A stretch of DNA of 64,000 nucleotides from Phreatobacter stygius. GTDB lineage: Bacteria; Pseudomonadota; Alphaproteobacteria; Rhizobiales; Phreatobacteraceae. Made by a program: the position numbers and the translations under genes. Below, piece after piece: positions 14,671-17,692 of the stretch; the stretch's first letter is position 1; every line of letters begins with the position of its first letter. The stretch spans positions 3,671,001 to 3,735,000 of the forward strand of contig NZ_CP039690.1 of NCBI RefSeq assembly GCF_005144885.1. The letters are read 5' to 3'. The notes under the pieces were generated by a model. The model was not told where the DNA came from, did no database searches, and saw only the letters and a list, made by a program, of their open reading frames with translations.

Positions 14671-14801
14671 GCGTCGGCGCGCCGCAATCTGGCCTCAACC
14701 CCATGATCAGAAGCTTGCGGCGGGGCAGTGGCCCCGCTGTTTAATTTGAGGTATGAGCCTTGCCGGGCTGTGGGGGCCGCAGGGAAGACCGGGGAAGGTT
14801 C

Positions 14802-15677
14802 GTGAGCTTGGTAAAGCGTCCGTTTGATCGACTGCCGCGCCGCACTTTCGTGCTGGCGACGGTACTGGCTGCGACCTTCCCGCTCGGCGCTTGCGCCAAT
14901 GCGCCGTCGTTCGGAAATCTGTTCGCCGGTCCGGATCCGACCAATCTGCCGGACGAGCCGGCCGAGAAGCTCTACAATGAGGGCCTGGCGCTGCAGAACC
15001 GGCGCGACTGGCGCCGCGCCGCGCTGAAATTCATGGAGATCGACCGCACCCATCCCTATACGGAATGGGCCAAGCGGGCCCTGGTCATGGCGGCCTATTC
15101 TTATTACGAGGCCCAGGACTACGAAGAGACGATCAACCAGGCGCGCCGCTATATCCAGCTGCATCCGGGCTCGTCGGACGCGGCTTATGCCCAATATCTG
15201 ATGGGCGCGGCGCAATATGACCAGATCCCGGACGTCAACCGCGACCAGGGCCGTACCGAGCGCGCGTTGGTCGTGCTGGAAGAGGTCACCCGCAAGTGGC
15301 CGCAGTCGGAATATGCCACCGCCGCCCGCCGCAAGATCGAGGTCGCCCGCGACCAGCTCGCCGGCCGCGAAATGATGGTCGGCCGCTACTATCTGGAGCG
15401 CCGTCAGTTCGCCGGCGCGATCAACCGCTACCGCACCGTGGTCTCGCAGTTCCAGACCACCCGCCACGTCGAGGAGGCGCTGGCCCGCCTCACCGAGTGC
15501 TACATGTCGCTCGGCATCGTCAATGAAGCACAGACGGCGGCCGCGGTTCTCGGGCACAATTTCCCCGACAGCCAGTGGTACAAGGACAGTTACGCGCTGA
15601 TCGCGACCCAGGGACTGGCGCCGCGCGAGGACACCGGCTCGTGGATCAGCCGCGCCTTCCGTCGTGTCACCGGCTGA
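14802..15677 (+). CDS. bamD: Outer membrane protein assembly factor BamD (lipoprotein)
   Basis: BamD is an essential lipoprotein of the BAM complex that inserts beta-barrel proteins in the outer membrane. The 291-residue product has an Arg-rich N terminus, a hydrophobic stretch and lipobox LGAC near residue 29. TPR-like repeats follow, with the BamD features KLYNEGLALQNRRDWRRAA, HPYTEWAKRALVMAAYSYY, and a third repeat with REMMVGRYYLERRQFAGAI. The GTG at 14802 is chosen because GGGGAAGG lies about four bases upstream and the resulting signal peptide is of normal length; an upstream start adds a charged extension. Confidence 0.93.
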   Translation: MSLVKRPFDRLPRRTFVLATVLAATFPLGACANAPSFGNLFAGPDPTNLPDEPAEKLYNEGLALQNRRDWRRAALKFMEIDRTHPYTEWAKRALVMAAYSYYEAQDYEETINQARRYIQLHPGSSDAAYAQYLMGAAQYDQIPDVNRDQGRTERALVVLEEVTRKWPQSEYATAARRKIEVARDQLAGREMMVGRYYLERRQFAGAINRYRTVVSQFQTTRHVEEALARLTECYMSLGIVNEAQTAAAVLGHNFPDSQWYKDSYALIATQGLAPREDTGSWISRAFRRVTG

Positions 15678-15683
15678 CGCCCT

Positions 15684-15705
15684 TCCGTTCGCGCTCCGTT
15701 CGCGC
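15684..15705 (+). repeat. Two-copy 11-bp tandem repeat after bamD
   Basis: The 11-mer TCCGTTCGCGC occurs twice head to tail, starting seven bases after the bamD stop. It looks like a simple replication duplication; no function is proposed. Confidence 0.6.
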
Positions 15706-15719
15706 TAAGCCGTAGCCTA

Positions 15720-16005
15720 GGGTCCGGACTCAATAAGGATGGGCTCACGATGAGGCCAAAATGGCCGAGGGCCAGGAGAAGCGCACAGCCCGATGTTTCC
15801 ATCGGGCAAGGGCTTCGCACAGCCATCGGCCATTTTCGCCTCACCGCGAAGCGGCGCGGTCCTTTTGGCCGGCTGGTACGTCGTCTCGCCCCGGCAAACC
15901 AATTGGTTTGCCTTGAGCAAGCCGAGAGGCTTGCGTCGGCAAGCCTCCTGCCATCCGGCCAAAAATCCTCGCGTCGTGAGCTCCATCCTTATTGAGTTCG
16001 GACCC
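15720..16005. mobile_element. 286-bp MITE-like structured element with about 33-bp terminal inverted repeats and TA flanks
   Basis: The ends (15720-15752 and the complement of 15972-16005) start GGGTCC and match with two substitutions and a one-base indel. TA lies directly outside both ends (15718-15719 and 16006-16007), as in Tc1/mariner/IS630-type target duplication. Inside are two long imperfect hairpin arms: 15751-15770 with 15824-15843, and 15863-15876 with 15951-15964. Smaller perfect hairpins sit at 15789-15806, 15893-15912 (20-bp palindrome) and 15917-15934, the last with a competing pairing to 15939-15945. Several short open frames cross it, but none resembles a protein and no transposase is present. 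It ends 31 bases before recN. A non-autonomous element or a large BIME-like repeat is the best reading. Confidence 0.75.
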
Positions 16006-16036
16006 TAAGGTTTCGGCAGGGAAACGCGGACCGCTC

Positions 16037-17692
16037 ATGCTTGCCCAGCTTTCGATCCGCGACATCGTCCTGATCGACAGGCTCGATCTGACCTTTGCCG
16101 AAGGCTTGTCGGTTCTGACCGGCGAGACCGGCGCCGGCAAATCGATCCTGCTCGATGCGACATCGCTGGCGCTTGGCGCGCGCGGCGACGCGGCGCTGGT
16201 CCGCAACGGCCAGACCCAGGGCCAGGTGACCGCGGTGTTCGACGTGCCGGCGGCCCATCCGGCGCGCCGGATCGCGGCCGACGCCGATATCGACACCGAT
16301 GGTGATCTGATTCTGCGCCGCGTGCAGCTTGCCGACGGACGCACCCGCGCCTTCGTCAACGATCAGGCGGTCAGCGTCCAGGTGCTGCGCGCCATTGGCG
16401 CGTCGCTGGTCGAGATCCACGGCCAGCACGCCGACCGGGCGCTGGTCGAGCCGGAAGCCCATCGTGCGCTGGTCGACGCCTATGGCAGCCTGCTGCCCGA
16501 TGCCGAAGGCGTGCGCACCGCCTGGAAGGGCTGGCGCGAGGCCCGCCGGACCGTCGAGGCGGCCCAGGCGCGCCTTGCCAAGGCCCGGGCCGACGGCGAC
16601 TTCCTGCGCCATGCGGTCGACGAACTGACCAAGCTCAAGCCGGAGACCGGCGAGGAGACCCAGCTTGCCGAACGCCGGCAGGCGATGATGCAGTGGGAAA
16701 AGATTGCGTCCGACCTGGCCGACGCCGCCGATGTGCTGGCTGGCCCGGGTTCGGCGGTTCCCTCGCTTGCCGCGGCCTGGCGCCGGCTCGAGCGGCGGGC
16801 CCAGCAGGCTCCCGCCATGATCGAGCCGATCGTCAGGGCCTTCGGTGAGGCGCTGGACCGGATCGAGGATGCTCGCTCGGCGGTCGAGGCGGCCCAGCGA
16901 GAGGCCGACTTCGACCCGCGTGAACTGGAGCGCATCGAGGAGCGGTTGTTCGCGTTGCGCGCCGTCTCGCGCAAATATGCCGTGCCGGTCGATGGCCTTG
17001 CCGCGCTTGCCGAGCGCTATCAGGCCGATGTCGCGGCGCTGGATGCCGGCGAAGGCCATCTGGTGGCGCTGGAGAAGGCCGCGCGCGAAGGCGAAGCCGC
17101 CTACCGCAAGGCCGCCGAGGCGCTGTCGGCCAAGCGCAAGGCGACCGCGATCAGGCTGGACAATGCCGTCAATGGCGAACTCGGTCCGCTGAAGCTCGAT
17201 CGCGCCCGCTTCATCACCGAGATGAACCATGACGGCGAAGGTCCCGAGGGGATCGACCGGGCTGAATTCTGGGTTCAGACCAATCCGGGCACCCGTCCCG
17301 GGCCGATGATGAAGGTGGCTTCGGGCGGCGAACTGTCGCGTTTCATGCTGGCGCTGAAAGTCGTGCTGGCCGACCAGGGGTCGGCGCCAACGCTGGTCTT
17401 CGACGAAATCGATACCGGTGTCGGCGGCGCGGTGGCGGACGCCATCGGCCAGCGCCTGTCGCGGCTCGCCTTGCGCGTCCAGGTGCTTTCGGTCACCCAC
17501 GCGCCGCAGGTTGCCGCCAAGGCGACACGGCATTACCTGATCGCCAAGGAGGCGGCCGGCGAACGGGTCGCGACCCGCGTCAAGCCGCTCGGCTTCGAAC
17601 TCCGGCGCGAGGAGCTCGCGCGCATGCTGGCTGGCGAAACCATTACCGACGAGGCACGGGCGGCGGCCGAGCGGCTGCTGACGGTCGGCTGA
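16037..17692 (+). CDS. recN: DNA repair protein RecN
   Basis: RecN is an SMC-like ATPase acting in recombinational repair of double-strand breaks. The 551-residue protein has the N-terminal Walker A TGETGAGKSIL and Q-loop region VEIHGQHADRALVE. A coiled-coil-rich middle spans roughly residues 155-370. At the C terminus are the ABC signature SGGELSRFMLALKVVL and Walker B LVFDEIDTGVGG, then SVTHAPQVAA. The ATG at 16037 gives the typical MLAQLSIRDIVLID start. The inverted-repeat element ends 31 bases upstream, so the recN promoter either overlaps it or lies before it. The last base of the stop is shared with the next gene. Confidence 0.96.
   Translation: MLAQLSIRDIVLIDRLDLTFAEGLSVLTGETGAGKSILLDATSLALGARGDAALVRNGQTQGQVTAVFDVPAAHPARRIAADADIDTDGDLILRRVQLADGRTRAFVNDQAVSVQVLRAIGASLVEIHGQHADRALVEPEAHRALVDAYGSLLPDAEGVRTAWKGWREARRTVEAAQARLAKARADGDFLRHAVDELTKLKPETGEETQLAERRQAMMQWEKIASDLADAADVLAGPGSAVPSLAAAWRRLERRAQQAPAMIEPIVRAFGEALDRIEDARSAVEAAQREADFDPRELERIEERLFALRAVSRKYAVPVDGLAALAERYQADVAALDAGEGHLVALEKAAREGEAAYRKAAEALSAKRKATAIRLDNAVNGELGPLKLDRARFITEMNHDGEGPEGIDRAEFWVQTNPGTRPGPMMKVASGGELSRFMLALKVVLADQGSAPTLVFDEIDTGVGGAVADAIGQRLSRLALRVQVLSVTHAPQVAAKATRHYLIAKEAAGERVATRVKPLGFELRREELARMLAGETITDEARAAAERLLTVG

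Follow-up and report, generated by a model that had tools for sequence, protein, structure and literature searches.

A TA-flanked element upstream of recN in Phreatobacter stygius is probably a resident copy of a MITE family with a conserved folded interior

Results

An inverted-repeat element between a LexA-type box and recN

The window, by which we mean the whole 64,000-nucleotide stretch of Phreatobacter stygius contig NZ_CP039690.1 that was analysed, carries bamD and recN on the same strand with an inverted-repeat element between them (Table 1). The recN product is 59-60% identical, at 97-98% coverage, to the annotated recN products of Sinorhizobium meliloti and Rhizobium leguminosarum, and its ATG at 16037 follows the element's end (16005) by 31 bp, the spacing given in the initial annotation. 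A GTTC-N7-GTTC sequence, which we take to be the alphaproteobacterial LexA/SOS box, matches once in the window, where about 1.5 matches are expected by chance. The same box precedes recN in all ten relatives whose recN leader was readable, starting between -62 and -108 relative to the ATG.

Table 1. Features of the bamD-recN region (window coordinates)
Feature	Position	Strand	Evidence
bamD (YfiO family), upstream gene	14760..15677	+	PF13525, E 1.5e-47
GTTC-N7-GTTC, LexA-type box upstream of recN	15687..15701	+	motif search
Left TA, presumed target duplication	15718..15719		sequence; most related elements also have a bounding TA on at least one side
Left terminal inverted repeat, type A end, GGGTCCGGACTCAATAAGGATGG	15720..15750	+	inverted-repeat comparison
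Arm Y, imperfect hairpin whose internal loop has AGGA facing GACG; + strand motif	15751..15847	+	model R2
Mini-hairpin CCGC-GAA-GCGG, 4 bp, between the arms	15844..15854		folding
Arm X, imperfect hairpin whose internal loop has AGGA facing GACG; - strand motif	15851..15972	-	model R1
Palindromic insertion, 24 bp, nested in arm X	15893..15916		comparison of resident copies
Right terminal inverted repeat, type A end	15974..16005	-	inverted-repeat comparison
Right TA, presumed target duplication	16006..16007		sequence
recN, downstream gene	16037..17692	+	PF02463, E 6.7e-13

The limits first proposed for the element, 286 bp at 15720-16005 with TA on both sides, hold in the sequence. The inverted-repeat search paired 15718-15742 with 15983-16007 (25 bp including the TA, 96% complementary), and an exact 8-bp pair (15743-15750 with 15974-15981) adds to this, in agreement with the terminal repeat of about 33 bp originally described. 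Two inner inverted repeats were found, one of 38 nt at 79% (15745-15782 with 15812-15849) and one of 14 nt at 93% (15863-15876 with 15951-15964). The perfect short hairpins that had been noticed were located at 15788-15807, 15893-15912 and 15926-15947, and the trio of repeated segments at 15917-15923 (GCAAGCC), 15928-15934 (GGCTTGC) and 15939-15945 (GCAAGCC). The two long hairpin arms of the same description correspond to two conserved arms, here called Y and X.

Strong structure was evident on both strands: folded as RNA, 15700-16020 gave -204.3 kcal/mol on the + strand (z -14.0) and -208.4 kcal/mol on the - strand (z -16.7), and in each case none of 100 shuffled sequences was as stable. The window copy is predicted to fold as a closed domain. 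At 286 bp it is shorter than 500 bp, and the ORFs inside or nearly inside it encode 81-89 aa, below transposase size. A search of 15400-16400 against the 4227 families of Rfam 15 gave one hit, of E 0.82 and 13.4 bits where the gathering score is 37, and ten related loci gave nothing at E up to 1. The suggestion that the element brings a promoter or a terminator to recN found no support, as a simple consensus scan detected neither; given its place between the LexA-type box and recN, a transcribed structure is plausible.

The recN upstream comparison revealed leaders lacking the element in 10 of the 10 readable relatives, as expected of a mobile element; an eleventh (G007) had no bamD match. The leaders of the relatives are different from and shorter than that of the window. 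The locus does not provide a clean empty site, because the leaders differ and one relative (G006, L083) holds a 48-bp perfect hairpin, starting AGAGCACGTC, at the element's exact place in the bamD-recN gap. By eye, the ends of this hairpin are like the TAGAGC ends of some members elsewhere. All ten leaders (L083-L092) also have GAATC between the box and the ATG, presumably a GANTC site of the CcrM type, and in at least six of them it falls at or next to the apex of a predicted hairpin. In the window, the stretch from box to ATG has no GANTC save a GACTC supplied by the element's left end.

A mosaic copy of a multicopy, mobile family

A search of the genome identified six near-full-length dispersed copies including that of the window, so that the element is multicopy; the five others are 85-88% identical to the window copy. 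Besides these, the genome has a remnant of 88 bp as well as end fragments, single or in pairs. The resident copies have two kinds of end, GGGTCCGGACTCAATAAGG (type A) and GGTCGTGCACTCATAATGG (type B), around one common interior. At the sites that distinguish A from B, the left end, Y arm and right end of the window copy carry type-A letters (one site is neither), and its X arm has the 24-bp nested hairpin and one further site in common with type-B copies. The 24-bp insertion at 15893-15916 is common to three resident type-B copies and absent from both other full-length type-A copies. Judged by these letters, the window copy is a mosaic of the two resident subfamilies, with exchange between A and B copies indicated mainly by the 24-bp indel.

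The nested hairpin, GGCAAACCAATTGGTTTGCC, is similar to a short palindrome, GGCAAAGCAATTGCTTTGCC, and 13 places in G006 match this part (L043-L060; 9 of the 13 were read). It may be a small palindrome that is mobile by itself. A second hairpin, of type CATGCCGGAGGCGTGCTTCCAGCACG, was seen at varying positions in elements of genome G302 (L095, L096, L098, L104-L106, L108, L111 and L112) and also within L118 (G316); other short palindromes thus seem to jump into these elements. A further observation concerns the places occupied. In locus L002 of the P. stygius genome, at about position 1501, a copy has a Proton_antipo_M stop codon as its insertion site, in the TA of which it lies, and a TAG stop is re-created there because the element end begins with G. 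A copy other than that of the window lies between two Proton_antipo_M genes of equal strand.

Mobility, which the initial annotation had proposed, is supported by a collinear empty site: where the P. stygius genome has the copy at 7126709, the related genome G006 has a single TA (L131 compared with L182). Four sister sites align across the junction in G006 without the element, and L131 is the only clean one. At the site of L128 the TA is kept and the flanks have diverged, that of L130 has CG at the junction, and that of L129 has a gap there. Sites in G302 aligned in the same way gave no clear empty or occupied reading. The features of a non-autonomous, TA-flanked, multicopy MITE, namely small size, terminal repeats, TA and copies, are thus all present as suggested, and the window element is best read as a resident and probably immobile copy of a TA-inserting MITE family.

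The ends resemble those of IS5-family insertion sequences

The end pattern is present in 111 of the 397 genomes of the order, where not every occurrence is an element. Among the places listed, the fetched end pairs were spaced either by 175-302 bp, which are the elements, or by 836-852 bp. Those of the wider spacing (L133-L139, from five genomes) enclose IS5-family transposase ORFs in two frames; L133, the one analysed with Pfam, matched PF13340 and PF01609 with its two pieces. No arms were detected in the four of these seven insertion sequences scanned with both arm models. In five of the eight elements among L140-L148 the first 19-20 bases are identical to those of an IS5-family insertion sequence; the remaining three have a mismatch at base 5. 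The type A end of the window copy agrees with the insertion-sequence ends found at 11-15 of the first 20 bases, and the P. stygius genome has no insertion sequence or transposase between window-type end pairs at up to 3 mismatches; for both reasons the IS5-family partner of the window copy is one that we infer. Since the 836-852-bp elements share the end style, the window element is, on sequence grounds, most likely an IS5-type MITE whose type A ends lack an exact partner.

Ends vary within single genomes as well: G302 has five end types around one interior, and the two ends of each copy match each other. The sole DUF4096 match in the P. stygius genome (L093) sits between TAGGGCCTG-type ends that resemble those of L179 (G728). 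It was considered as a partner and rejected, its ends being related in style and neither type A nor type B (all by eye).

A conserved two-armed interior

The common fold consists of an end helix, an arm, a mini-hairpin of 3-4 bp and a second arm, with arms of about 100 nt. Among the folds listed, the elements L140-L148, which were found by the end pattern alone, and elements of other families fold like the window copy, and the conserved fold spans copies that are barely similar as DNA. In 73 of 86 arms from 43 elements, a GGA starts 55-59 bases (0-based) inward from the end. The arm loop has AGGA on its 5' side and GACG on its 3' side, beyond which lies another small loop; in arm Y of the window copy the A of GACG is missing. 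Two-armed elements contain one X and one Y arm, inverted, and the motif therefore lies on opposite strands in the two arms, on the strand that reads inward from each end. Model R1 scored arm X of the window, which is outside its training rows, at 71.4 bits (E 1.4e-20), and R2 scored arm Y, whose row is among its 23 training rows, at 82.9 bits (E 1.9e-20).

Paired changes were counted in two alignments. Alignment A3 holds 28 of 37 X arms and omits those that carry nested insertions, are long in the apical part or have a rearranged 3' side (the window copy, L130, L128, L129, L126, L127, L095, L108 and L146); A4 holds 22 of 30 Y arms plus that of the window, omitting L129, L096, L098, L105, L106, L111, L112 and L118. 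For X, 93.1% of 951 cells were paired and 27 of 34 pairs had changed on both sides, with 171 double-changed cells compared with 41.1 in shuffles (none of 500 as high). Shifting the X structure by 1-3 columns left at most 45.5% paired and 49 such cells. The Y arms behaved likewise, with 95.1% of 795 cells paired, 29 of 35 pairs changed on both sides and 139 double-changed cells against 32.6 after shuffling. Each letter of AGGA and GACG was kept in 90-100% of 30 X arms outside the training set.

Because repair of a palindrome also yields paired changes, G-T pairs, which a folded strand tolerates, were compared with A-C, which is the same pair read on the other strand. On the motif strand the ratio of G-T to A-C was 41:9 for X arms and 31:9 for Y arms. 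The 30 X arms outside the training set gave 43:14 (18 rows against 3, with 9 ties); from both X counts two pairs with G-T in the reference were left out. For 15 new Y arms the ratio was 26:8 (10 rows against 2); these were 15 of the 36 rows of alignment A7, the rest having been set aside as X arms, as complements or as a second element, and an earlier count of 17 new Y rows gave 30:9. As an internal control, the terminal repeats of 60 elements gave 40:49; the ends of some of these (L171, L124, L125, L143 and L166, for instance) are uncertain or shifted. The bias was weak in two subsets that do not follow the others, L140-L148 (16:11) and the single-arm elements of G656 (3:4). These counts are optimistic, in that rows are related and the class-wide arms came from a model that itself favours G-U pairs and the loop letters. 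Since G-T exceeds A-C in the arms and not in the terminal repeats, a folded single strand, RNA or DNA, is probably under selection.

Distribution of the arms and members with a single arm

Model R1, built from A3, recognises L145 (65.8 bits), L126 and L127, none of which is in A3. Used in a search of the class, which by inference is Alphaproteobacteria, at E up to 1e-4 with stricter filters, it matched 31 of 385 genomes including that of P. stygius, in 29 of 277 genera. The class assignment draws on plasmid records with a RecN match, of which the best 12 of 48 are from Sinorhizobium, Shinella, Rhizobium, Paracoccus and Sphingomonas, on the ligase matches listed, which agree with these, and on the type of box before recN. 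One locus was viewed in 29 of the 30 other carrier genomes, and 24 of the 29 had paired ends, as did L163. These ends differ widely (among them are TAGGGTCTGAACCCAATTC, TACCAAAGGTCCTTGATAATGG, TAGAGCGTTTTCAGGG and TAGGAGCCTGTCTGAGTAATGG), and most begin with TA on at least one side. In the sequences compared, the arms are more constant than the ends. DNA similarity to the window element was detected in 7 of the 397 genomes of the order, its own included, and such a search thus sees little of the family next to the end pattern (111 of 397) and the arm model (31 of 385). A locus from a gammaproteobacterial MAG (L039) was set aside, since by eye the 22-nt pattern alone matches. Six element or end queries against plasmid sequences returned one chance-like match of 18 nt, and exact patterns had no match in viral contigs.

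Members with a single arm between ends measure about 167-206 bp (e.g. L171, L158, L202-L205), and those of G656 have no evident fixed orientation to predicted neighbours. Two genomes of one genus, G535 and G633, contain seven arms without terminal repeats. In six of the seven (L195, L197-L201) the match ends at, in or no more than 1 base from the stop codon of an opposite-strand gene; L196 has no such stop codon. The neighbours contributing these stop codons are unrelated: an FtsH-type peptidase, an HNH nuclease, a redoxin, a short-chain dehydrogenase, AnmK and BipA. At L195 and L201 the gene on the far side shares the strand of the adjoining gene. The bare arms have a G-T to A-C ratio of 12:2. 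Because they lie antisense to genes and touch stop codons, we lean slightly towards single-stranded DNA over RNA as the folded strand.

Discussion

Several published repeats invite comparison. Bacterial MITEs, including those of the IS5 family, are described in passages of PMC10969869 as likewise short and non-coding, with terminal repeats, a short target duplication, insertion-sequence-like ends and a mostly intergenic location. Unlike them, as those passages present them, the present family keeps its interior fold in 29 of 277 genera while its ends vary. The nearest published repeat that we met is CIR of Caulobacter and other alphaproteobacteria (Chen and Shapiro, 2003, as cited in PMC2229807), which is intergenic and about 110 bp long. 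As outlined there, CIR likewise has TA termini and a predicted RNA with two long arms and a linker; it differs in being without terminal repeats, which are long in the present elements, and in carrying GANTC in its loop, whereas a GANTC anywhere from position 30 to position -30 occurs in 8 of 60 present elements. Measured against the definition in those passages, we do not assign the window element to CIR, given its 286 bp with terminal repeats and the GANTC count of the family. The pneumococcal RUP repeat (PMC2229807) likewise inserts at TA and has ends matching a resident element, IS630-Spn1; it is 107 bp long, its partner is of the IS630 type, and a two-arm passenger is not described in the passages on RUP. 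MITEPye1 of Paracoccus yeei (PMC11578231) is also an alphaproteobacterial MITE with terminal repeats and a stable predicted RNA fold, and is set apart by its length of 159 bp and its IS1182-like ends. The passages concerned in PMC4161386 and PMC5082802 describe other repeats. We met no description of the present family in a literature search that left subscription papers mostly, and ISfinder entirely, outside its scope, and the family is seemingly undescribed.

A resemblance of another kind is to integron attC sites, in which structure is kept with little sequence, one strand is folded, and the site lies antisense at the 3' end of a gene. By analogy, the bare arms of G535 and G633 recall attC in their antisense 3'-end placement. 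The attC sites have R and L boxes with a GTT/AAC core; unlike these, the arms have no GTT/AAC boxes that we could see by eye, and the adjoining genes are of the chromosomal housekeeping type.

We think it likely that the window element and its relatives are old MITEs moved by IS5-family enzymes, each carrying a conserved folded passenger between ends that differ. The window copy would be an old non-autonomous transposon of 286 bp plus its TA duplication, which an IS5-family transposase would move in trans via its ends. Its interior, with the inverted X and Y arms, the mini-hairpin and an AGGA / GACG loop at a near-fixed distance from the element end, would be a conserved passenger and not insertion-sequence debris. 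We propose that the fold stays under selection because the arm is recognised by a protein, of the host or a transposase, which would bind it as a folded single strand; the outer ends would follow whichever transposase is present. Given its place between the LexA-type box and the recN start, the element should be transcribed as a closed leader domain. A more specific form of this explanation, tentative and in our judgement rather unlikely, holds that the arm itself is a mobile hairpin module, acting as a folded strand that is probably DNA, occurring bare in antisense at stops, paired head-to-head in larger elements and supplied with varied ends for TA-specific transposases. If that were true, one passenger lineage would ride successive insertion-sequence families across Alphaproteobacteria.

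What the folded strand does may also be read at the level of RNA, a serious possibility that nonetheless falls short of probable. The arm RNA would act as a signal for processing, stability or antitermination and render insertion in operons and leaders harmless, and a two-armed element would work in both orientations because the 5' arm carries the AGGA / GACG motif in either RNA. The motif on the inward-reading strand of each end, the G-T (G-U) surplus on the motif strand, the predicted closed domain of the window copy between the LexA-type box and recN, and the copy between same-strand Proton_antipo_M genes all agree with this. The existence of single-arm elements, those of G656 without evident fixed orientation, does not, and neither does the antisense placement of the bare G535 and G633 arms in 6 of 7 cases or the lack of a match among 4227 Rfam families. 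Should the fold be under no selection at all, the family would consist of ordinary MITEs in which intrastrand template switching keeps the palindrome arms complementary, so that old copies merely look structured. Both ends do match exactly in many copies, and according to parts of PMC10969869 and PMC2229807 MITE transcripts commonly fold stably. We nevertheless find this improbable, since unpaired loop letters are fixed in place across arms of very different sequence, and strand-symmetric repair gives no G-T bias, whereas the arms are biased (weakly in subsets) and the terminal repeats, at 40:49, are not.

The parentage put forward in the initial annotation, a MITE of the IS630/Tc1-mariner type, would account for the TA duplication and the GGG-type ends. 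It is now disfavoured and appears quite improbable, as the insertion sequences found with this end style are of the IS5 family; the DUF4096 match of the P. stygius genome, too, lies between TAGGGCCTG-type ends like those of L179 (by eye). We give next to no credence to a cis-regulatory recN RNA that evolved in place. The leader position downstream of the LexA-type box is what such an RNA would have, but copies lie at unrelated loci and the recN leaders of 10 of 10 readable relatives contain none, which refutes it as an origin; later recruitment to such a role may have occurred.

MITEs are usually viewed as shrunken insertion sequences in which the ends count and the middle does not. Here the reverse is seen, with the middle conserved and the ends varying. 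Counting G-T and A-C separately on each strand, and using the terminal repeats as internal control, offers a simple computational test that separates a selected fold from palindrome repair. The family hints at a hitherto undescribed protein with a folded single strand as its target, and the idea of a passenger that outlives its transposases by changing its ends becomes testable.
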